From assembly GCA_012267505.1 (NCBI GenBank), contig JAAXGI010000156.1, positions 1 through 36,067 on the forward strand: a stretch of DNA of 36,067 nt, in the 5' to 3' direction. Position numbers and translations under genes: made by a program. This DNA comes from Gemmatimonadota bacterium (GTDB lineage: Bacteria > Gemmatimonadota > Gemmatimonadetes > Longimicrobiales > Gaopeijiaceae). Positions within the stretch are counted from its first letter, which is position 1; the number at the start of each line of letters is the position of its first letter. A model generated the notes under the pieces. The model was given only the letters and a program-made list of their open reading frames with translations, was not told the origin of the DNA and searched no databases. Of the stretch, positions 13,957-33,701 are shown piece after piece.

Positions 13957-14200
13957 GGGGTGCAACCATCCCCGAGGCATGATCCTGAACCTCTCGCTGG
14001 ACAAGAACCAGACCGTCGCGGATCTCATCCCGCACGCCCTCGCCATCGGGCACGTGCTCCACTGCGTGGCTCCCCGCGCATCGTCCCCGGCGACCCACCC
14101 TGTTCCGGTCGATTCCCAGCTCCGTTGCGATCGCCCTGTTCGTCATCCCATCGGCCCCCATCAACACCATCCGCGACGGCTCCCGCAGCCGCGCCGCCAC
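13957..14200 (-). pseudogene. IS630-family transposase remnant, N-terminal part
   Basis: The minus strand from 14200 encodes REPSRMVLMGADGM, then NRAIATELGIDRNRVGR, the N-terminal helix-turn-helix of IS630-type transposases. After an apparent deletion and frame shift, TQWSTCPMARACGMRSATVW and then ERFRIMPRGW (about 14067 to 13957) resemble the usual THWSTRTMAR..G.S..TVWR..K.....PHR block. The stretch between the HTH and THWS blocks is too short, so the gene is internally deleted. Together with 13040-13200 it covers both ends of one transposase in the correct order. Confidence 0.65.
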
Positions 14201-14264
14201 TCCTCGGGACCGCGACTACCATTCCAGGCGATTCCTCTCCTCGCCGGTCAACACCATCCGCGAC
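14161..14264. repeat. 17-bp direct repeat flanking transposase debris
   Basis: TCAACACCATCCGCGAC occurs at 14161-14177 and again at 14248-14264. On the minus strand both copies read SRMVL-like codons of the transposase N-terminus, so a partial duplication of that region is likely. The 14201-14443 stretch otherwise contains no gene that I can support. Confidence 0.7.
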
Positions 14265-14443
14265 TGCCACCCGCATGGCCCCTCCCCGTCTCCGAGAGTA
14301 CGATGGAGCAATGGGTCGCGAGCGCAACGCTGACAATTAGTATCCTGTTCGCGACACTACGCTGGTCTTCCGCGATTCCGTCATCTACGGTCGGAAACGG
14401 AGGGTTCCCGGACGATCGCATGCCACCATCCACGGGAGGACCC

Positions 14444-15385
14444 ATGGCACATCGGACACCTGACGCGCGCCCGCTCTGGCGGGCCGCCCCCGTTCTGGCC
14501 CTGGCGGTGCTCGGCTCGATCCCCACTCCGGCGGCCGCGCAAGAGGTCGGTCCGGCCCGCGGAGCACTGGTGATAAGCGGCGGCGGGGAGACCACGAGCC
14601 ACATCGTCGATCGCTTCATCGAGCTCGCCGGCGGTCCGGACGCGCCTATCGTCGTGGTCCCGACCTCCGGACGGCAGGACGAGGACTATCACCAGTTCTG
14701 CCCTTGCCTCCGGCGTTTCCGCGACGCTGGTGCGACGAACCTGACCGTGATGCATACGAGGGACCGGGCGGTCGCCGACACCGAGGCTTTCGTCGAGCCG
14801 CTGCGGGGGGCCCGCGGCGTGTGGTTCATGGGAGGAAGTCACTGGCTCCACACCGACGCCTACCTCGACACCCGGGTCCATGAGGAGATCTTCGCGCTCC
14901 TCGATCGCGGCGGGGTGATCGGGGGAGGGTCCGCCGGTGGTCATATACAGGGCGAGATCATGAATGTGAGCCGATCCCCCGAACGGGAATTCTCGGAGCG
15001 GAAGCTTCCCCGCGAGGACTGGCGGCGGGGGTTCGGACTCCTTCGGGGCGTGATCATCGACGTGCACGTGCTCGCCAGGAACAGGCAGTTCGACATGATC
15101 GGAGTGATGGAGAGGCACCCCGGGATGCTCGGGATCGCGATAGACGAGAACACGGCGATCGTGGTCGAGGAAGACGAGTTCGAGGTCATCGGGACGAGCT
15201 ACGTGATCATCCACGACAGCGGGCGTGCGATCCCGCCCGACCCTCCGGAGACGTGGCGGACCGTCGGCGGTCCGTTCTACTTCCTCCGTCCCGGAGACAG
15301 ATACGACCTGGTGGCGAGGGAGGCCACCCGACCGACCGGTTCCGCGGATCCGATCGCCCGGGTGGCCCCGGCGAACACTCGGTGA
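14444..15385 (+). CDS. Secreted S51-family (cyanophycinase-like) peptidase
   Basis: A 313-residue protein with a signal peptide (cleavage near AAAQ, residue 33). The mature part starts with GALVISGGGE and has the nucleophile elbow GGGSAGGHIQGE with the presumed catalytic Ser163, as in S51 peptidases and cyanophycinases. The segment usually read as GGDQ or GGNT in the family is GGSH here (residues 130-133). A C-x-C pair (FCPC, 86-88) could form a disulfide or bind metal. The start at ATG 14444 has GGGAGGA upstream; ATG 14420 is less likely. It is followed by a gamma-glutamyltranspeptidase homologue, so both may degrade exported isopeptides. True cyanophycin cleavage is unproven. Confidence 0.85.
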   Translation: MAHRTPDARPLWRAAPVLALAVLGSIPTPAAAQEVGPARGALVISGGGETTSHIVDRFIELAGGPDAPIVVVPTSGRQDEDYHQFCPCLRRFRDAGATNLTVMHTRDRAVADTEAFVEPLRGARGVWFMGGSHWLHTDAYLDTRVHEEIFALLDRGGVIGGGSAGGHIQGEIMNVSRSPEREFSERKLPREDWRRGFGLLRGVIIDVHVLARNRQFDMIGVMERHPGMLGIAIDENTAIVVEEDEFEVIGTSYVIIHDSGRAIPPDPPETWRTVGGPFYFLRPGDRYDLVAREATRPTGSADPIARVAPANTR

Positions 15386-15648: not shown

Positions 15649-17499
15649 ATGAACGACCGAAAGAGATGTCAGCCGTTCCTTACGATAGCGGCTCTGGCCT
15701 TGGGTCTCGCCATCCCGGGCGTGCTTCTGGCACAGAACCGCCAGGACCAGGTACACCCCGATGCCGCGGGTCCGGCGGCGCAGTCACGGGCCGTACATCG
15801 GCCGCCTGTCCAGTTCGTGCACGGTGCGGTCACGGCCGGCCACCCCCTGGCATCGATGGCCGGACTCAGGATCCTGCTTGAGGGCGGAAACGCGGCCGAC
15901 GCAGCCGTGGCCACCCTCGCGACCCTTCACATCATGCGGCCCCAGAGCTCGGGCACGGGCGGCAACGGGTTCTTCACGATCTACGACAAGGCCACCGACC
16001 GGGTCTATTCGCTGGGCGCCACGGGCGCCACTCCCATGGGAATCGATCCGGCGACGATGACGCGCGAGGCGCTGAACCACGGCATTCGCGCCGGGGTCGT
16101 CCCCGGGCTCTTCGGAGGCTGGGTCGCGCTTCTCGACCGGTTCGGAACAAAGAGCCTGTCGGAGGTGCTCGAGGCCGCGATCGACTACGCGGAAAACGGC
16201 CATCCGATAGAGGAGTCGGTGGCTCGGTCGATCGCGGGAGCCCGGGAGCGGTTCGAGGAGTTTCCCACCAGCGCCGCCTTCTTCCTCCCCGGCGGGGAAG
16301 TGCCGGTACCGGGGGAGATGTTCCGGATGACCGACTTGGCGAACACCTTCAAGAAGGTGGTGGAAGCCGAAGAGGAGGCGCTCCGGGCGGACAAGAGCCG
16401 TTCCGAGGCGCTGCAGGCGGCCTTCGATCGGTTCTACAAGGGCGACATCGCCCGGGAAATGGCCCGGTTCTACCAGGACAACGGCGGGGACTTCACGCTC
16501 GAGGACTTCGCCGCCTACGAGCCGATCTGGGCCGAGCCCGTGCACACCACGTTCCGGGGCTACGACATCTATTCGAGCCCGTCGACCTCCCGGGGCGGGT
16601 TCGAGGTCGCGATGCAGCTGAACCTGGTGGAGGGGTTCGACCTGAAGGCGCTCGGGCACAACAGCCCGGAGGCAATCCACCTGCTCACCGAAGCGATCAA
16701 GGTGGCGAAGTCCGACATCTACCACTACGTCGCCGATCCGGCATACACGGATCTCCCGGACGCCGGCCTCCTCTCGAAGGAATACGCGGCCGAGCGGCGC
16801 CGGCTCATCAGCCGGCAGGCGGCGATGAACTATCCGGAGGCCGGGCGGCCCGCCGGCGTCTCGGCCTCCCTCCCCACACCGGGGGGACCGCAGTTCGACG
16901 AGCCCGCAGAGGTGGGCGGCACGACCAGCTTCACCGTCGCGGACAGCTTCGGCAATGTGATCAGCGCCACGCCGACACACGGCGGCGGCTTCGGTACCGG
17001 CGTGGTCGTCGGCAACACCGGCCTGCTCTTCAACAACGGAACCCGGATCGGATCGACATCCCCCTACCCGGACGATGTCAACTACGTCCGCGGAGGGCAG
17101 ATCCCGCTCCTCAACAACTCGCCCGTCATCGTCATGAGGGACGGCGAGTTCGTCCTCGGCATCGGAACTCCCGGCGGCGAGACGATCGGCCAGACACAGT
17201 TCCAGACCGTGCTGAACGTCCTGGAGTTCGGGATGTCGATACAGGAGGCGGTCGCGGCCCCGCGGTTCGTCCTGACCGCCGAGCCCAACTTCTATCTCCC
17301 GGGCGCGGATATCGTGCTGAACCTCGAGAACCGGATCTCGCCCGAGACCGCCGGCGCGCTCTCCGCCATGGGGCACAACGTGGAGCTGGCCGCGCCATAC
17401 GCCTTCGGGAGCAACCAGGGCATCCTCCGGGATGCCGAGACCGGGACGATGTCGGCGGGCGCGGATCCCCGGCGCGCGGCTTACGCTGTGGGCTGGTGA
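15649..17499 (+). CDS. Secreted gamma-glutamyltranspeptidase-family (Ntn) hydrolase
   Basis: A 616-residue exported protein with a signal peptide ending near VLLAQ. Family hallmarks are AGHPLAS, GGNAADAA, SSGTGGNGFF, and the autocleavage/catalytic block GGTTSFTVADSFGNVIS, with Thr425 as the likely nucleophile that would start the small subunit of about 192 residues. GFGTGVV and the GTPGGETIGQT loop also fit. Residues that bind the gamma-glutamyl donor in E. coli GGT appear changed: the Arg114 region reads SLGATGATP, the Asp433 region reads NNGTRIG, and Ser462-Ser463 reads NN (PLLNNSP). GGGGGGAGA precedes the chosen ATG. Self-processing hydrolase activity is likely; classic glutathione specificity is doubtful. 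Confidence 0.9.
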   Translation: MNDRKRCQPFLTIAALALGLAIPGVLLAQNRQDQVHPDAAGPAAQSRAVHRPPVQFVHGAVTAGHPLASMAGLRILLEGGNAADAAVATLATLHIMRPQSSGTGGNGFFTIYDKATDRVYSLGATGATPMGIDPATMTREALNHGIRAGVVPGLFGGWVALLDRFGTKSLSEVLEAAIDYAENGHPIEESVARSIAGARERFEEFPTSAAFFLPGGEVPVPGEMFRMTDLANTFKKVVEAEEEALRADKSRSEALQAAFDRFYKGDIAREMARFYQDNGGDFTLEDFAAYEPIWAEPVHTTFRGYDIYSSPSTSRGGFEVAMQLNLVEGFDLKALGHNSPEAIHLLTEAIKVAKSDIYHYVADPAYTDLPDAGLLSKEYAAERRRLISRQAAMNYPEAGRPAGVSASLPTPGGPQFDEPAEVGGTTSFTVADSFGNVISATPTHGGGFGTGVVVGNTGLLFNNGTRIGSTSPYPDDVNYVRGGQIPLLNNSPVIVMRDGEFVLGIGTPGGETIGQTQFQTVLNVLEFGMSIQEAVAAPRFVLTAEPNFYLPGADIVLNLENRISPETAGALSAMGHNVELAAPYAFGSNQGILRDAETGTMSAGADPRRAAYAVGW

Positions 17500-18641: not shown

Positions 18642-20348
18642 TCAGCCCGCGATATCGTTCCAGGCCTCGACGAGGCGCTCCGCGGTCCGCCACGCGAGCG
18701 CCTGAACCGTCAGCGTCGGGTTCCGGGCGCCGCTCGTGCCCATCACGGAAGCGCCAAGAACGCCGAGGTTTCCCGCCTCGTGCGAGAACCCCCAGCGGTC
18801 CACAACATTCGTCTCGGGATCGTCTCCCATCCGCGTGCCCCCGTAGGCGTGCGTCGTCACGCCCATCGTGCTCCCGAGCCCCGAGGGATTCACCTCGACG
18901 GCCCCCGCCGCGCGGTACCACTCGATCATCCTCTCCTGCAGGAATGCGGCGATCTTGAGTTCGTTGTCCCGGTAGGAGGCGGTGATCCGTATGACGGGCT
19001 GGCCCAGGCGGTCCGTCACCGCCGGATCCAGGTCCAGGTAGTTCGTGTCGTAGGGCAGCGTCGTCTTCTGGATGTAGGAGCTGACCGAGCGGTCCGCATT
19101 CTCCCGGATGAACCGCTTCCACGCGCTCCCCCAGTTCGGCCCCCGCCCGAAGGTGTTCATGCTGGCGGCCCCGATCGGACGTCGGTCGGAGTAGACCCAG
19201 AGGTTGCCTCCGCCGATGAAGGGGAGCTCCGAGTGGTCGAAGTTGTCGTCGGCGAAGTCGTCGATGGCCACGCCCTGGGCGGGAAGCCCGTACCACGCCC
19301 CCAGGTCGAAGGGGAAGAGTGCCGATACCCCCGCACCCTGGTGATGGCTGAAGTAGTGGCGCCCGACTTGCCCGTGGTTGTTCGAGAGGCCGTCGGGATA
19401 GGCCACCGAGCGGGAGAGGAGAAGAAGCCGGACGTTCTCGTAGGTGTAGCCCGCGAGGAGGACGACCCTCGCCGGCTGGAAGAACTCCTCGGTGCCTGTC
19501 ACGTAGCGCACTCCGGCCGCCCTTCCCTCTCCGTCGACCTCCACCCCCGTGACATGGGCCCGGGGGATCACGGTGAGGTTCCCCGTCTCGAGCGCCTTCG
19601 GGATCGTCGTCACGTATGTCGCGCTCTTCGCGTCGACGTGGCACCCGCCCCTGCTGCAGTGTCCGTGGTAGACACACCCGGGCCGGCCCTCGTACGGCTC
19701 GGTCGTGATCGCCGCGGGTCCCGGGAAGGGCGTCCATCCGAGCGTCCGCGCCGCCTCCGCCAGCCGCTCGAGGAAGGCGGTCCAGCGGAGCGGCGGCATG
19801 GGATACTCCCGGGCACGCGGGCCCTCGAACGGGTTCCCGCGCGGATCGATCCGCCCGCGGACGTTCCCGGCCTGGCCAGACACACCGAGTTCCCGCTCCA
19901 CGACATCGTAGTGGGACTCGAGCTCATCGTAGTCGAGCGGCCAGTCCTCGACCGTCGATCCCGCGGGGATCCGGTCCGCCCCGTATCGCCGCCTCGTCTC
20001 GCTCACGACGCGGAAATCCCACGGGTTCAACCGCCAGCTCTGTGCCCAGTAGTGGATCGAGGTGCCGCCGACCGCGTTCATCATCGGGTGCGTTCCGACC
20101 TGCACGGCGGTGTCCGTCGAGTGGCCACGGACGGTCGGCCGCTCCTCCTGCGTCTTCTTCACGATGAAGGGCCAGTTGCGGACGTTGTTCCGGATCTCGT
20201 CCGGCACGAAGTCCCGCCGGTCCAGCCAGGTGCCGGCCTCAAGTCCCACGACCCGGAGGCCCGCCCGGGCCAGCGGGAGCGCGGCCACCCCTCCGGCTGC
20301 CCCCATCCCCACGATTACGACGTCCGCGTCGCGATTGCGCCGGGTCAT
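18642..20348 (-). CDS. GMC-family FAD-dependent oxidoreductase (gluconate 2-dehydrogenase large subunit type)
   Basis: A 568-residue flavoprotein. The N-terminal dinucleotide fold is VVIVGMGAAGG (about 10-20). The C-terminal GMC domain has THAYGGTRMGDDP, with His500 in the place of the catalytic His of GMC enzymes, and GARNPTLTVQALA, with Asn543 as the second active-site residue (a His/Asn pair). A Cys-containing stretch (PGCVYHGHCSRGGCHVDAKS) resembles that of the membrane-bound sugar-acid dehydrogenase subgroup. It starts seven bases after the stop of the subunit 3 gene, so the two are surely co-expressed. It probably oxidises a sugar or polyol; the substrate is unknown. Confidence 0.92.
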   Translation of the reverse strand: MTRRNRDADVVIVGMGAAGGVAALPLARAGLRVVGLEAGTWLDRRDFVPDEIRNNVRNWPFIVKKTQEERPTVRGHSTDTAVQVGTHPMMNAVGGTSIHYWAQSWRLNPWDFRVVSETRRRYGADRIPAGSTVEDWPLDYDELESHYDVVERELGVSGQAGNVRGRIDPRGNPFEGPRAREYPMPPLRWTAFLERLAEAARTLGWTPFPGPAAITTEPYEGRPGCVYHGHCSRGGCHVDAKSATYVTTIPKALETGNLTVIPRAHVTGVEVDGEGRAAGVRYVTGTEEFFQPARVVLLAGYTYENVRLLLLSRSVAYPDGLSNNHGQVGRHYFSHHQGAGVSALFPFDLGAWYGLPAQGVAIDDFADDNFDHSELPFIGGGNLWVYSDRRPIGAASMNTFGRGPNWGSAWKRFIRENADRSVSSYIQKTTLPYDTNYLDLDPAVTDRLGQPVIRITASYRDNELKIAAFLQERMIEWYRAAGAVEVNPSGLGSTMGVTTHAYGGTRMGDDPETNVVDRWGFSHEAGNLGVLGASVMGTSGARNPTLTVQALAWRTAERLVEAWNDIAG

Positions 20349-20355
20349 ATCCGAC

Positions 20356-21048
20356 TCACTCGTACGCCGAGCGGCGGAGCGGCTCGAGCGTTCCGGCCTC
20401 GAGCGCCGCCTGCTCCTCGGCGCTCACCACGCGCCGGGGCCCGGGATATCCGATCAGGTCCCACCCGATGAAGTCCCTGTTTCCGCCGTAGGCCGGATCC
20501 CCGAAGGTCGCCTGCCAGGTGTGGGCGCGGACCGTGTTGAAGAAGGCGGCCGAGCTGCCGAGGAAGCCGGCTCCGCTCCCCGTCGCTCCGCCCGTCTGGA
20601 GGTCGAAGAGGACCGAGTCCTGCTCGTGTTCGGGGAGCTCCACGAAGGGGGCCCTGCGCGTGTATTCCGCGTAGCGGTCGAGCGCTAGAAGACCCGCGCG
20701 GTAGAGCTCCCGGGAGTTCGCGAGAGCGCCACCGAGTTCCCGGTCGATGTAGTCGAGCGCGCCGGCCTCTCTCGCCCCCGGGCCGGTCTCGTCGCTCGGG
20801 ATCAGCCGGCCGATCACCGCATCGAGGATCTCCCGCTCGCCAGCTGTGAGGTTCCGTGGCGCGGGCAGTCCCGCCGGGTCCGGAGCCGGCGGGAGGGGCG
20901 TTTCGGGGGGGAGGACCTCGCCCTCGCCTTCAGCGACGCCGGCCAGGGGTGTGGCGGGGAGCATCGCGGCGGCGCCGGCAAGTCCGGCACCGCGGAGGAG
21001 ATCACGTCTCGACCACTTCTTCGGCCTGCGGGCCCCGCCCTCTGCCAT
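20356..21048 (-). CDS. Gluconate 2-dehydrogenase subunit 3-like protein, Tat-exported
   Basis: About 230 residues. The start at ATG 21048 is preceded by AAGGAGG at ideal spacing and is preferred to GTG 21069. The N-terminus carries a twin-arginine signal (SRRDLLRGAG followed by an alanine-rich hydrophobic stretch). The body matches the small subunit that pairs with GMC dehydrogenases (EREILDAVIGRLIPSDETGP, and FIGWDLIGYPGPRR near the end). In known enzymes this subunit forms a complex with the flavoprotein and helps its export. It lies between the PEBP-like and GMC genes. Confidence 0.9.
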   Translation of the reverse strand: MAEGGARRPKKWSRRDLLRGAGLAGAAAMLPATPLAGVAEGEGEVLPPETPLPPAPDPAGLPAPRNLTAGEREILDAVIGRLIPSDETGPGAREAGALDYIDRELGGALANSRELYRAGLLALDRYAEYTRRAPFVELPEHEQDSVLFDLQTGGATGSGAGFLGSSAAFFNTVRAHTWQATFGDPAYGGNRDFIGWDLIGYPGPRRVVSAEEQAALEAGTLEPLRRSAYE

Positions 21049-21065
21049 CTTCGCCTCCTTCTCTG

Positions 21066-21731
21066 TCACCGCGGGCCGTCGTCCGCGCTAGCGCGGCCCC
21101 CCGGAAGATCCCCGCCCTCCCGCTCCCACGGGTCCGGCATGGGAATGCGCTCATACACGGGAACGAGCGCCCCCTCTCCGATCACGTGGCCCTCGATCGC
21201 GGCCAGGAACTCGTCGCGTTCGAGCCCCGGCGGGAGGTCGAGTTCGGTACCCAGCGCATATACCGCGAAGTGGTAGTGGTGAAGGCTTTCCGCGGGCGGC
21301 GCGGGACCCCGGTACATCGGGAGCCCCCAGCTGTTGTTTCCCTGCACGGCTCCGGCGATCTCCGCCGGCATCGGATCCAGCGGATCGAAGGGGACACCCT
21401 CGGGAAGACCGGCCGCGGTCGCGGGGATGTTGTAGATGATCCAGTGGACCCAGGGCGGGGGGTTGCCGGCGCCGTGGTCCTGGCAGATGACGGCAAGCTG
21501 TCTCGTGCCGGACGGGAGATTCGACCAGGCGATCGGGGGCGAGAGGTTCCTCCCGTCGGGGGAGTGGTCACGCGGGATCAGCTCCCCGGTCCGGAGAACC
21601 GGGCTTGTGACGACGATGGGCTCCGGCGCCTGCGCCGCGATGTCCGGCGGGAGAAGCGCGACCACCGCGAAGAGGGGAACGCAGCTCCATGGAGAGACGA
21701 TGCCCCTCGGAAGGGATCGGAGCGTCGCCAT
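21066..21731 (-). CDS. YbhB/YbcL-type phosphatidylethanolamine-binding (PEBP) protein, secreted
   Basis: A 221-residue protein with a signal peptide ending near IAAQA. The PEBP ligand-site motifs are present: DHSPDGRNLSPPIAW, DHGAGNPPPWVHWIIYNIP and GNNSWGLPMYRGPAPP. The start at ATG 21731 has GGGGAG five bases upstream; the frame extends to 21803, but that part precedes the signal peptide. It is first in an operon with subunit 3 (17 bases apart) and the GMC oxidoreductase. Bacterial PEBP proteins have no settled function; here a role next to a periplasmic dehydrogenase is implied only by position. Confidence 0.9.
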   Translation of the reverse strand: MATLRSLPRGIVSPWSCVPLFAVVALLPPDIAAQAPEPIVVTSPVLRTGELIPRDHSPDGRNLSPPIAWSNLPSGTRQLAVICQDHGAGNPPPWVHWIIYNIPATAAGLPEGVPFDPLDPMPAEIAGAVQGNNSWGLPMYRGPAPPAESLHHYHFAVYALGTELDLPPGLERDEFLAAIEGHVIGEGALVPVYERIPMPDPWEREGGDLPGGRASADDGPR

Positions 21732-30086: not shown

Positions 30087-31163
30087 TCAGTCGATCACCG
30101 CCACCGATTTCACCCTCGCCACGACGCGCATCCCGGGCTCAAGTCCGAGCCGGTCGGAAGAGAGGGATGTGATCCGGGCGAGAAGCGCCGCCTCCTGCCG
30201 GCCCCGGCCGAGCTCGATGAACACCTCCCCCTTTCCGCCGGGGAAGATCCGCCGCACCTCCATCCCGAACTCGTTCAGGATGCTGCTCCCGGATCCGGAT
30301 TCGAGGGCGATGCTCACATCCCCGGCGCGGACCTGCAGCCGGACGGACTCCCCGGGGGAGCCGGGCCGGCGACGCGCGTAGAGCGGCCCCCACGGCGAGG
30401 ACATCCGCGTTAGGTGATGCACGTCGTCGTGCGCGGCGATGGTCGCTCGGACCACGACCGCGGCCTCGCTCCCCTGCCAGCGGACGAACCCCCCGTCGCG
30501 GACCACCTCGTCGGGTGTGCCCGCCCGCTTCACCCGGCCGGCCACGAGCCAGATCATCCGGTCGGAGAGCCGGAGCACCTCCTCGAGCGAGTGACTCACA
30601 TAGACGACCGGAATCGAGAGGCGGGACGGGATCTCGGCGATGCGCGGGAGGACCTCGCGCCGGCCGACCTCGTCGAGCCAGGAGAGGGGCTCGTCCATGA
30701 GGAGGAGCCCCGGACGGGCGAGAAGCGCGCGCGCGATCGCCACGCGCTGGCGCTCGCCCCCCGAGAGATCTCCCGTCGTCCGTCCGAGGAGGGCCTCGAG
30801 GCCCAGCCACTCCACCGCCTCGGAGAGAGAGAGGCCCGGGCCGCGCGCCCTCCTCATCGCGTACTCGAGGTTCCCGCGCACGCCTAGGTGGGGAAAGAGG
30901 CTCGATTCCTGGAAGACGTAGCCGACGCGGCGGCGATGGGGCGGCACGAAGAGGCGGGGCCGGTCGCGCTGCCACGTCTCCTCCCCGCGGACGAGGCTCC
31001 CCGTGGCCCGCGCCTCGAGACCCGCCAGGCAGCGGAGCAGCGTCGTCTTGCCGGAGCCCGAGGCCCCGAAGACGGCGGTGATCCCCCGGCCGGGGATCGT
31101 CCCGTCGAAGTCGAGGAGGAAGCTCCCCAGCCGGAGGTTGAGACGGGCCCGGAGGTGCGTCAC
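30087..31163 (-). CDS. modC: Molybdate ABC transporter ATP-binding protein ModC
   Basis: A 358-residue ATPase with Walker [10 protein letters not shown], signature [15 protein letters not shown], Walker [13 protein letters not shown] and the SHSLEE switch. The C-terminal part from about residue 250 is a TOBE/Mop-type oxyanion-binding domain ([10 protein letters not shown]), typical of ModC. The start is GTG 31163, overlapping the modB stop as GTGA. A larger open frame reaching 31742 is a shadow over modB. It energises molybdate (or tungstate) import with ModA and ModB. Confidence 0.93.
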
Positions 31164-31846
31164 GGCGTCCTCCCGCCCCGGGTCCGGCTGGAGCCGTAGG
31201 CGACGGCGAGCACCGCGAAGGAGAAGACGAGCATCCCGAACGAGAGGAGGTGCGCGGAGCCGTAGTCGAGAGCCTCCACATGGTCGAAGATCGCGATCGA
31301 GACGACCTGTGTCCGGCCCGGGATGTTCCCGCCCACCATGAGGACGACCCCGAACTCTCCCACGGTGTGGGCGAAGCTCAGGGCGGCGGATGTGACGACG
31401 CCCTGGCGGGCCATCGGGAGGGCCACCGTGAAGAAGCGGTCCCGGGGCGTGGCCCCGATCGTGGCGGCCGCCTCGAGGGGGCGCGGGCCGATGGCGCGGA
31501 AGGCGGTATGGAGCGGCTGGACGGCGAAGGGGAGGGAGAAGAGGACCGAGCCGACGACGAGCCCGGGAAAGGAGAAGACGAGGCGGTCCCCCCCGAGGCT
31601 CTCCCACCACCCGCCGACGGGACCGGACGGGCCCAGGAGCACGAGGAGGTAGAAGCCGAGGACGGTCGGGGGGAGGACGAGGGGCAGCGCGGTCACCGTC
31701 TCGACGAGTGCACGAAGGGGCGAGGCGGTGCGCGCGAGCCACCAGGCGAGCGGCGTTCCGAGGACGAGCAGGATGAGCGTCGTCACCGTGGCGAGCCGGA
31801 GCGTGAGGGCGATGGCCGCCCAGTCGCCTGCGGAGAAGAGGCTCAC
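31160..31846 (-). CDS. modB: Molybdate ABC transporter permease ModB
   Basis: A 228-residue membrane protein with about six helices and the EAA loop that docks on ModC ([20 protein letters not shown]). [20 protein letters not shown] and [20 protein letters not shown] are typical ModB segments. The start is GTG 31846 in a GTGA overlap with the modA stop, with no good ribosome-binding site of its own, so it relies on coupling. Confidence 0.95.
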
Positions 31847-32625
31847 GGGAGGAGAGCCGGAGCGGCGTACCCGGAGGAGCGGATCACCTCCCGCGCCTCG
31901 GCGCTCCCGAGGAACGCGAAGTAGTCGCGCGCCGCGGCGTTGGCGGCCGCGGCCGGAAGGAGCACACCGTCCTGGTCGAGGGGGGGGTGATACCCGCCCG
32001 GGACGACCCAGTAGCTGTCCGCCGGCTCGTCGATGACCTGCGCGAGGGCGACGAATCCGAGCTCGGCCGCGCCCGAGCGGACGAACTGGAGGACCTGGCT
32101 CACGCTCTCCCCCCGGACAAGCCGGGGCGTGAGGAGAGGCGTGAGCCCCAGACGGTCGAGAACCGCCGCCGCGGCGGCTCCGTACGGCGCCGAGCGGGGG
32201 TTTGCGAGTGCGACGTTCACGACGCGCGGATCCCTCAGGTCGAGGCCGTCCGCGCGGACCGGGTCGAGTCCCGGACCGAAGAGAGCGAGCCGGCCGGTCG
32301 CGTAGGTGAACCGCGTGCCCGGAAGGATCAGCTCCGCCTCCTCGAGAAGCCGGGGCCGGAGACGGTCGGCGGCGAGAAAGACGTCGAAGGGGGCGCCGTT
32401 CGCGATCTGGGCGTAGAGCTGGCCGGTTGAGCCCACGCTCACCTCGACCCGGACGCCCGTCCTCGCCTCGAACCGGCGCGAGAGCTCCGCGTGGGTCCGG
32501 CTGAAGTTCGCCGCGACCGCCACGAGAACGCGCGCCCCGCCCCCGGCGTCCTCATCCGGCACGCCGCATCCGGCGAGACCATGGAGGGCCGCGAGCGCAA
32601 GGGGAAGCCACCCTCCAGCCCTCAC
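31843..32625 (-). CDS. modA: Molybdate-binding lipoprotein ModA
   Basis: A 260-residue periplasmic binding protein with a lipobox (LHGLAGC), so it is probably membrane-anchored. ModA features include [14 protein letters not shown] (anion-binding start), [32 protein letters not shown] and [13 protein letters not shown]. The start is GTG 32625, overlapping the regulator stop as GTGA. It captures molybdate or tungstate for ModBC. Confidence 0.94.
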
Positions 32626-33701
32626 CTACGCCTCCCCATTCCTTCCGCGTCGTAGCCGCCGAGCGCCTCCACCTGCCGCCGCACGGCGGGCGAGCGGAGG
32701 AGTCCGAGGAGGGCACCGACGGCGGGAAGGCCGAAGAAGTGATCCGGGATCACGAGATCGTAGCTCTCCTCCTCGAGAGGGAGGGTGTCGAGTCCCCAGG
32801 CGAGGGCGGCCGCGCGGATCCCGACGCCCGCATCCGCCAGGCCGGCGGCGATGGCCTCGGCCACCGCCAGGTGTCCCGACGCCGCACGCTCGCGAAACCC
32901 GCGAACCCGGTCCCCCGCGATCCCCTCGGTATGGAGCCGCGCCTCGACGAGCGCGCGGCTTCCCGATCCCTTCTCCCGGTTCACGAACCGGAGCTCAGGG
33001 CGGGCGAGGTCACCGATCCCCCCGACGCCGAGGGGATTGCCCCTCGCCACAATCAGGCACTGCTCCCAGACGGAGAAGCGGACGACGGTCACCGGGAAGG
33101 GGAGGCCCGCCTTCGCGAGTGCGGGCTCGCCGTGCACCCCCGCGATATGGGCATCCCCACGGGCCAGAGCCTCGAGCGCACTGCGGGCGCTGCAGGCGAG
33201 CCATGTGGCCTCGAGCCCCGTCCGCCGCCGGAGTTCCTGCGAGACGAGCGCGAAGGCCGGGTCGCACCCGAGCACGAGAAGCGCGCTCTCGGGCGGCGCC
33301 TCGTCGAAGAGATCGATGTGGACCCTCCCCCCCGAGAGCGGGCGGGCCATCCCGTCGGCGGGCTCGCCGAACCGGCCGAGCTGCTCTCCGAGAGGGACCG
33401 CCATCAGCCTACGGCCTACCCTCACCACCCTGACGCGCCCGAGCCGGCGGTCTCTCCGCAGCGTGACCGGATCGGCCACAACCGCACGCGGCCGGCGCGC
33501 GGGGAGCCGGAAGAGGGTCTCGACGGGAAGCCCTAGCGCGCGGGCCAGCCGGAGAGCCACCCCGGTCGAGGGCACCGAGGCGCCCGACTCGATCGCGGCG
33601 TAGCTCTGGCGGCTGATCCCTGCGAGGTCGGCGAGGGCCTGCTGCGAGAGCCGCCGCTCAAGCCTCTCCTCGCGAAGCGAGTTGATGAGTCGACCGGACA
33701 T
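32622..33701 (-). CDS. HTH regulator fused to a periplasmic-binding-protein-like domain, mod operon regulator
   Basis: A 359-residue one-component regulator. Residues about 10-65 form an XRE-type helix-turn-helix (LSQQALADLAGISRQSYAAI). From about 135 onward lies a PBP-like ligand domain (PF12727 type: LVLGCDPAFAL, EKGSGSRALVEARL, GLADAGVGIRAAA). It has no signal peptide, so it senses its ligand in the cytoplasm, most likely molybdate or tungstate given that it heads the modABC operon. ATG 33701 has no ribosome-binding site and sits directly at the predicted transcript start. The mod operon is therefore probably autoregulated through the upstream dyad. Confidence 0.88.
   Translation of the reverse strand: MSGRLINSLREERLERRLSQQALADLAGISRQSYAAIESGASVPSTGVALRLARALGLPVETLFRLPARRPRAVVADPVTLRRDRRLGRVRVVRVGRRLMAVPLGEQLGRFGEPADGMARPLSGGRVHIDLFDEAPPESALLVLGCDPAFALVSQELRRRTGLEATWLACSARSALEALARGDAHIAGVHGEPALAKAGLPFPVTVVRFSVWEQCLIVARGNPLGVGGIGDLARPELRFVNREKGSGSRALVEARLHTEGIAGDRVRGFRERAASGHLAVAEAIAAGLADAGVGIRAAALAWGLDTLPLEEESYDLVIPDHFFGLPAVGALLGLLRSPAVRRQVEALGGYDAEGMGRRR

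Follow-up and report, generated by a model that had tools for sequence, protein, structure and literature searches.

What does a member of the gamma-glutamyltranspeptidase (GGT) superfamily act on when its catalytic residues are in place and those that should hold a gamma-glutamyl group are replaced? The question is raised by an open reading frame (ORF) at positions 15649-17499 on the + strand of the window, by which we mean the whole 36,067-nucleotide stretch of DNA that was analysed. The start and stop of this frame were confirmed, a purine-rich stretch precedes the ATG at 15649, and the ORF, Pfam and model evidence identify its 616-residue product (P0001) as an Ntn-hydrolase precursor of the GGT superfamily, with a PF01019 match of 407.9 bits (9.3e-122) that spans residues 74-610 and amounts to a full-length GGT domain. 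A hydrophobic leader, in which residues 13-26 form the most hydrophobic 14-residue stretch, points to a probable Sec signal peptide at residues 1-28 (15649-15732, + strand) with a putative cleavage site at its end, and hydrophobic, signal-like N termini also occur in the subfamily rows inspected. Judged from its sequence, the gene product is probably a secreted relative of GGT, located in the periplasm or outside the cell.

The best solved relatives of the window protein are Bacillus licheniformis GGT (4y23, 257.5 bits), E. coli GGT (2e0w), the Bacillus halodurans protein 2nlz and LmbA2991 (6j3a, 201.1 bits), and CapD is also among the matches listed. An AlphaFold2 model built from a 33-sequence alignment (pLDDT 89.9, pTM 0.92) matched these four structures at Z 46-48 in a fold search, with Z 48.4 and an rmsd of 2.2 over 534 residues for 4y23. 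In the structural comparison with E. coli GGT that the preliminary description had suggested, the small subunits superposed, with model range 379-570 (where 379 is Thr425) lying on residues 391-580 of chain 2e0y_B at Z 14.0 and an rmsd of 1.7 over 179 aligned residues. The fold search cannot tell the donor, as proteins with and without the donor-binding Arg114 tie at Z 46-48. With E. coli K-12 GGT (L024) as the reference for residue mapping, Thr425 corresponds to Thr391, Thr443 to Thr409 and Gly509-Gly510 to Gly483-Gly484, so that the window protein shares with the E. coli and B. licheniformis enzymes (MEROPS T03, PF01019) the fold (Z 47-48), the Thr nucleophile, Thr409 and the oxyanion Gly-Gly. 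The Thr block had been described as intact, and it is indeed complete (Thr425, Thr426, Thr441 and Thr443). The small subunit (16921-17496, + strand) would begin with the predicted nucleophile, Thr425 (16921-16923), as the superposition and a Thr at this position in 28/28 aligned rows indicate, and the oxyanion-hole glycines are followed by an acid, giving Gly509-Gly510-Glu511 (17173-17181, + strand; 28/28 rows). With its Thr block intact, the protein probably cuts itself into subunits.

The donor site, by comparison, is thoroughly altered. In E. coli GGT the donor is contacted by Arg114, Ser462 and Ser463 at its carboxylate and by Asn411, Gln430 and Asp433 at its amine, according to the available part of PMC6769717. 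Alignment with the E. coli enzyme bears out the earlier reading that the equivalents of Arg114, Asp433 and Ser462-Ser463 are ATGATP, NNGTRIG and PLLNNSP. Thr125 takes the place of Arg114 in ATGATP (residues 124-129; 16018-16035, + strand; GATGATP where E. coli has DFREMAP). In NNGTRIG (residues 462-468; 17032-17052, + strand; NNGTRIGS where E. coli has NNQMDDFS) Asp433 is replaced by Ile467 and an arginine, Arg466 (17044-17046), is gained, and PLLNNSP (residues 486-492; 17104-17124, + strand) stands where E. coli has PLSSMSP, with Leu488-Asn489 instead of Ser462-Ser463. Two further contacts, Asn411 and Gln430, have become Gly445 and Gly464, and the lid-loop residue Tyr444 falls in a gap. The Asp433 segment is two residues longer in the subfamily than in Bacillus GGT, and different aligners pair Asp433 with Ile or with Ser, in neither case with Asp. 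By its donor contacts (Arg114/Asn411/Gln430/Asp433/Ser462-463), then, the window protein does not qualify as a true gamma-glutamyl GGT. That donor residues can be lost was known already: Table 3 of PMC4568574, a source available in part, sets R114, N411 and S462 of E. coli against S88, Y378 and I422 of a 'Bact4ext' protein.

The replacements are shared by the subfamily to which the window protein belongs. In alignment A3, which has 28 rows including the window protein and one partial row (L014), the donor positions read T24/A4 at R114, G28 at N411, G28 at Q430, I24/V3/H1 at D433, L28 at S462 and N28 at S463, so that five of the six E. coli contacts have gone altogether, with Asn in place of the sixth. 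The positions of T391, T409, G483 and G484 are conserved in 28/28 rows, and four new residues, Arg466, Asn489, Asn490 and Glu511, are equally invariant (28/28) and may, by their position in the sequence, be relocated donor contacts. Five later members outside A3 (L097-L101) carry the Arg, LNN and GGE in 5/5 cases, L101 having a gap at the N411 position. Sequencing error or local decay of the window gene was considered and is ruled out, because the replacements are fixed across 28 rows. Together, sequence and model establish that the GGT fold, the Thr nucleophile and the oxyanion glycines are kept and that the gamma-glutamyl contacts are swapped for a fixed alternative set. One subfamily member, L097 (G378:C186), has Ala at the nucleophile position (GSATSF) and is possibly inactive or affected by a sequence error. 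That relative lends some colour to the idea that the window protein is a self-processing homologue that is catalytically dead or purely structural, which we regard as scarcely credible given that the equivalents of Thr425, Thr443 and Gly509-510 are present in all 28 rows of A3.

With a threshold of E <= 1e-120, a search of 298 genomes sampled from the window's phylum found the subfamily in 26 (the window's own genome included), and a sample of 199 from the phylum to which an Acidobacteria metagenome-assembled genome (MAG) belongs gave 6 (that MAG included); one named match is a Planctomycetales MAG. The window's own genome has eight GGT-family matches, two of them partial at contig ends. Two paralogues, L001 and L002, keep the classical pocket (Arg114, Asn411, Asp433 and Ser462) and could cover gamma-glutamyl work; L003 and L006 are without Arg114; and a second subfamily copy (L005/L051; G000:C248, L051/L071) shows 61-65% identity. 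Near this second copy are a PQQ dehydrogenase-like gene and a putative cyclase. In the phylum, GGT-family genes occur in several copies, with 6 to 22 first-look candidates in each genome listed.

A maximum-likelihood tree was built from 47 rows, which remained after L014, L016, L017, L030, L031, L032, L034, L036, L039, L040 and L048 were dropped from a 58-row set in which one gene appears twice (L014, L096), several rows are near-identical, and the partial L017, with no residue at position 114, is counted among the 48 rows without Arg114. Outside both row sets are the partial sequences L007, L008, L049 and L050, the sequences L020, L021 and L023 (close to L019 and L022), L026 and L046 (repeats of one gene), and L029. 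The 21 subfamily rows form one clade (100/100), nested in a 35-row branch (100/99) that also holds LmbA2991 and 2nlz, the B. halodurans 'cephalosporin acylase', and from which the 10 Arg114 rows are all absent. Among the 16 other tree rows that have no Arg114, two (L006 and L088) fall outside this branch; the sister position of L095 has weak support (88/88), and L006, L088 and L090 sit on long branches. LmbA2991 groups with L015, L090 and L092 (100/97), separate from the window protein's clade (100/100). Clades with changed donor residues, including R114/N411/S462, had already been separated in a 2015 study of 47 GGTs (PMC4568574), and the available part of that paper holds no mention of the window protein's clade; a literature search on GGT in the window's phylum found no papers. 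The clade thus appears to be distinct and undescribed, within a known and poorly charted non-glutamyl branch.

The tree and the pocket bear on whether the window protein might still be a gamma-glutamyl hydrolase whose donor is held by the relocated Arg466, Glu511 and Asn489-490. Some evidence favours this: in the available part of PMC6769717, Ser-to-Ala changes in the SS motif leave B. licheniformis GGT fully active and the human enzyme with about 1% of its activity, and the accessible text of PMC8062742 lists E. coli GGT D433N with 82% of hydrolysis. The curated NCBIfam model TIGR00066 also scores the window protein at 356.0, just below the cut-off of 357.85, a weak test in that L003 and L019, likewise without Arg114, pass it. 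Set against these points are the clade-wide loss of five contacts, with Asn at the sixth, and the classical-pocket paralogues in the same genome, and we judge retained gamma-glutamyl hydrolysis distinctly unlikely.

The preliminary description had proposed a different substrate with the processing Thr kept, and this gains support from the fixation of the loss in the clade, from LmbA2991 in the same branch and from the classical paralogues L001 and L002; the donor-residue loss is stronger than had been stated, and a different substrate with autoprocessing kept is the best reading of the sequence. One of the substrates offered as an example, a D-amino-acid polymer, found no support. Cleavage of such a polymer, for example poly-gamma-D-glutamate, would suit the missing lid loop of the window protein: Bacillus GGTs lack the loop as well, and the part of PMC8062742 that was available ties their open cleft to poly-gamma-glutamate hydrolysis. 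CapD was compared through the description in that review, in which the donor site is said to be conserved and rigid in both CapD and human GGT; an enzyme that cleaves poly-D-glutamate should accordingly retain the donor residues. Their loss speaks against any gamma-glutamyl polymer, and the proposal is very improbable.

A different feature of the donor site may indicate what is bound instead. In the 58-row set, an Arg in the small-subunit segment equivalent to E. coli 426-435 is found in 0/10 rows with Arg114 and in 45/48 of the others (30/30 subfamily rows and 15/18 other rows, the exceptions being L006, L088 and L095), counts that reflect few independent evolutionary events, perhaps one, because the rows are related. 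The same Arg is present in 4/4 non-canonical PDB proteins that were aligned, as GTR in LmbA2991 and as QNRG in 2nlz, HpxW (5hft) and 2i3o, although Arg466 aligns with the Arg of other branch members only if an insertion of two residues is accepted, and is otherwise two positions off. HpxW is an oxamate amidohydrolase with an oxalyl donor. LmbA-type C-C cleavage has been proposed to proceed through an oxalyl-Thr intermediate (PMC5519988, available in part). From the Arg pattern, this proposal and the activity of HpxW, we hypothesize that the donor-binding Arg has shifted to the small subunit, where it would anchor a small carboxylate-bearing acyl group and not a gamma-glutamyl group. The link from the Arg to an oxalyl-like carboxylate is an analogy with two characterized enzyme types.

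Arg466 could instead be merely structural, in a non-gamma-glutamyl amidohydrolase with a neutral or bulky, acylase- or peptide-like donor. The site is less charged, with polar contacts changed to Thr, Gly, Leu and Ile, the lid loop is missing (the gap at Tyr444), and the branch holds a protein deposited as a cephalosporin acylase, 2nlz, whose name is however the depositor's label. The invariance of Arg466 and Glu511 beside the site (28/28) fits charged-group binding better than pure structure, and we consider a neutral or bulky donor possible, if somewhat unlikely. The mark of class IV cephalosporin acylases is Asp433 to Asn, according to the accessible part of PMC8062742, and the window protein lacks it, having Ile or Ser, by aligner, at this position.

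The closest comparisons with characterized or solved proteins show both kinship and differences. LmbA2991 (6j3a/6j3i; Z 46) belongs to the same non-canonical branch, has lost Arg114 and has the small-subunit GTR and a GTPGG followed by an acid, but it is 32% identical to the window protein, has TPSGG and RPRTTL where the window protein has TPTHG and IPLLNN, and lies in another sub-branch; no LmbA-type biosynthetic genes were found among the window neighbours scanned. The LmbA-type GGT homologues LmbA and Ant6 are stated to be without gamma-glutamyl activity in the available parts of PMC6085292 and PMC5519988, the latter calling the role of LmbA2991 in its own host unclear. HpxW, also of the GGT superfamily, has its Arg in the same small-subunit segment and an acid after Gly-Gly, but it has HT where the window protein has LN, is distant (its small chain scores 57.5 bits against the subfamily profile) and is outside the tree. 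The B. halodurans 2nlz, which shares a branch with the window protein, and the Thermoplasma acidophilum GGT-related 2i3o (Z 48.2 and 44.4) have HTI or HTL and GVMGGF or GSMGGD in place of LNN and GTPGGE. Classical GGTs differ at Arg114, Asn411, Gln430, Asp433 and Ser462-463 alike, and the window protein stands apart from the Arg114 rows in the tree.

We also asked what the surroundings of the gene indicate. Directly upstream lies an S51/cyanophycinase-like ORF (13979-15385, + strand; PF03575, 5.5e-10), probably secreted, which scores 104.5 bits with TIGR02069, below the cut-off of 126.6, and which probably starts further downstream than the ORF list gives. The two genes are on the same strand with 263 bases between them, and the S51 ORF has a signal-like stretch and a GGGSAGG motif, features that would suit joint action of the two enzymes on isopeptides such as beta-aspartyl dipeptides. 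No S51 match was found by tblastn (E <= 1e-8) in 32 other loci, 26 of the subfamily (two of which are the same contig) and 6 of other GGT relatives, several with short flanks; a beta-aspartyl donor would moreover require amine and carboxylate contacts like those that are lost, and we give this partnership very little credence. Of 12 window ORFs sought in these 32 loci with the same threshold, only one HupE stretch (L066) was found beyond GGT. An all-against-all comparison of ORFs from the window and 24 other loci gave 13 lineage-crossing clusters, the two widest being the GGT gene and frames over the GGT gene. The next widest, a PQQ-dehydrogenase-like ORF, was found at differing distances in 10/25 loci (L056, L058, L060-L064, L066, L070 and L071; Pfam-checked in L056, L066, L070 and L071). 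These loci come from four lineages, with a single genus accounting for 7 of them, and the ORF is absent around the window's own GGT gene. The PQQ-dehydrogenase family is multi-copy, with 51, 22, 8 and 10 matching stretches in four genomes, often several per protein, and for this reason we tentatively hold the ORF to be a chance neighbour, with association also possible. Serine beta-lactamase-like, NHL-repeat and S15-peptidase ORFs recur in two to four lineages (of the beta-lactamase-like cluster, the Pfam scan covers L052), and among 20 nearby ORFs of relatives scanned with Pfam, which include alkaline phosphatase, aminotransferase, thymidine kinase, thioesterase, 2-oxoglutarate dehydrogenase and solute-binding proteins, no family was common across loci. 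In the loci and ORFs compared, no neighbour is conserved throughout and the context points to no pathway. Elsewhere in the window, 18642-21069 (- strand) encodes a GMC oxidoreductase and a gluconate-2-dehydrogenase subunit 3-like protein with a TAT-signal match, and 30087-33701 (- strand) encodes an ABC ATPase with a TOBE domain, a solute-binding protein (SBP_bac_11) and an HTH plus PBP-like regulator, presumably resembling a molybdate-type uptake set.

The reading that we favour, while giving it not quite an even chance, is a secreted non-gamma-glutamyl Ntn-hydrolase of the GGT superfamily with an open site, a carboxy-acyl donor gripped by Arg466 and a scavenging role. After export, the precursor would undergo self-cleavage on the N-terminal side of Thr425, giving a large and a small subunit. 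This threonine would then attack the carbonyl of a small acyl donor, in an acyl amide or at a C-C bond as in LmbA, and the acyl-Thr intermediate, stabilized by Gly509-Gly510, would be resolved by water. More tentatively, the donor may be an oxalyl, malonyl or similar group whose carboxylate lies near the carbonyl under attack, and Arg466, in the small subunit, would grip this donor in place of an Arg from the large subunit. Asn489, Asn490 and Glu511 perhaps complete the pocket, and the open site without a lid loop might accept large or varied leaving groups. The likely role would be extracellular scavenging of amide-bound nitrogen or carbon. Counting against a carboxy-acyl donor, the branch relatives mostly have His-Thr and Asp where the window protein has Leu488-Asn489 and Glu511.

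A broader proposal, which we consider unlikely, divides the GGT superfamily in two. One part would handle gamma-glutamyl groups with an Arg in the large subunit; in the other, the donor Arg would lie in the small subunit and the pocket would be turned round for short carboxy-acyls and oxalyl-Thr chemistry. To this other part the GTR/LNN/GGE clade, found in Gemmatimonadota, Acidobacteriota and a Planctomycetales MAG, would add a new class of secreted enzymes, for example an environmental de-oxalylase or a similar acyl-amide scavenger. Curated models tend to label such proteins gamma-glutamyltransferases, as the passing of TIGR00066 even by L003 and L019 illustrates. A two-site rule, large-subunit Arg114 or small-subunit Arg, splits the 10 classical rows from 45/48 others and could help to correct annotation in this multi-copy family. 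To our knowledge, the activities of the branch comprise only LmbA-type C-C cleavage and oxamate hydrolysis by HpxW, and a substrate for the window protein's clade would open up this branch.
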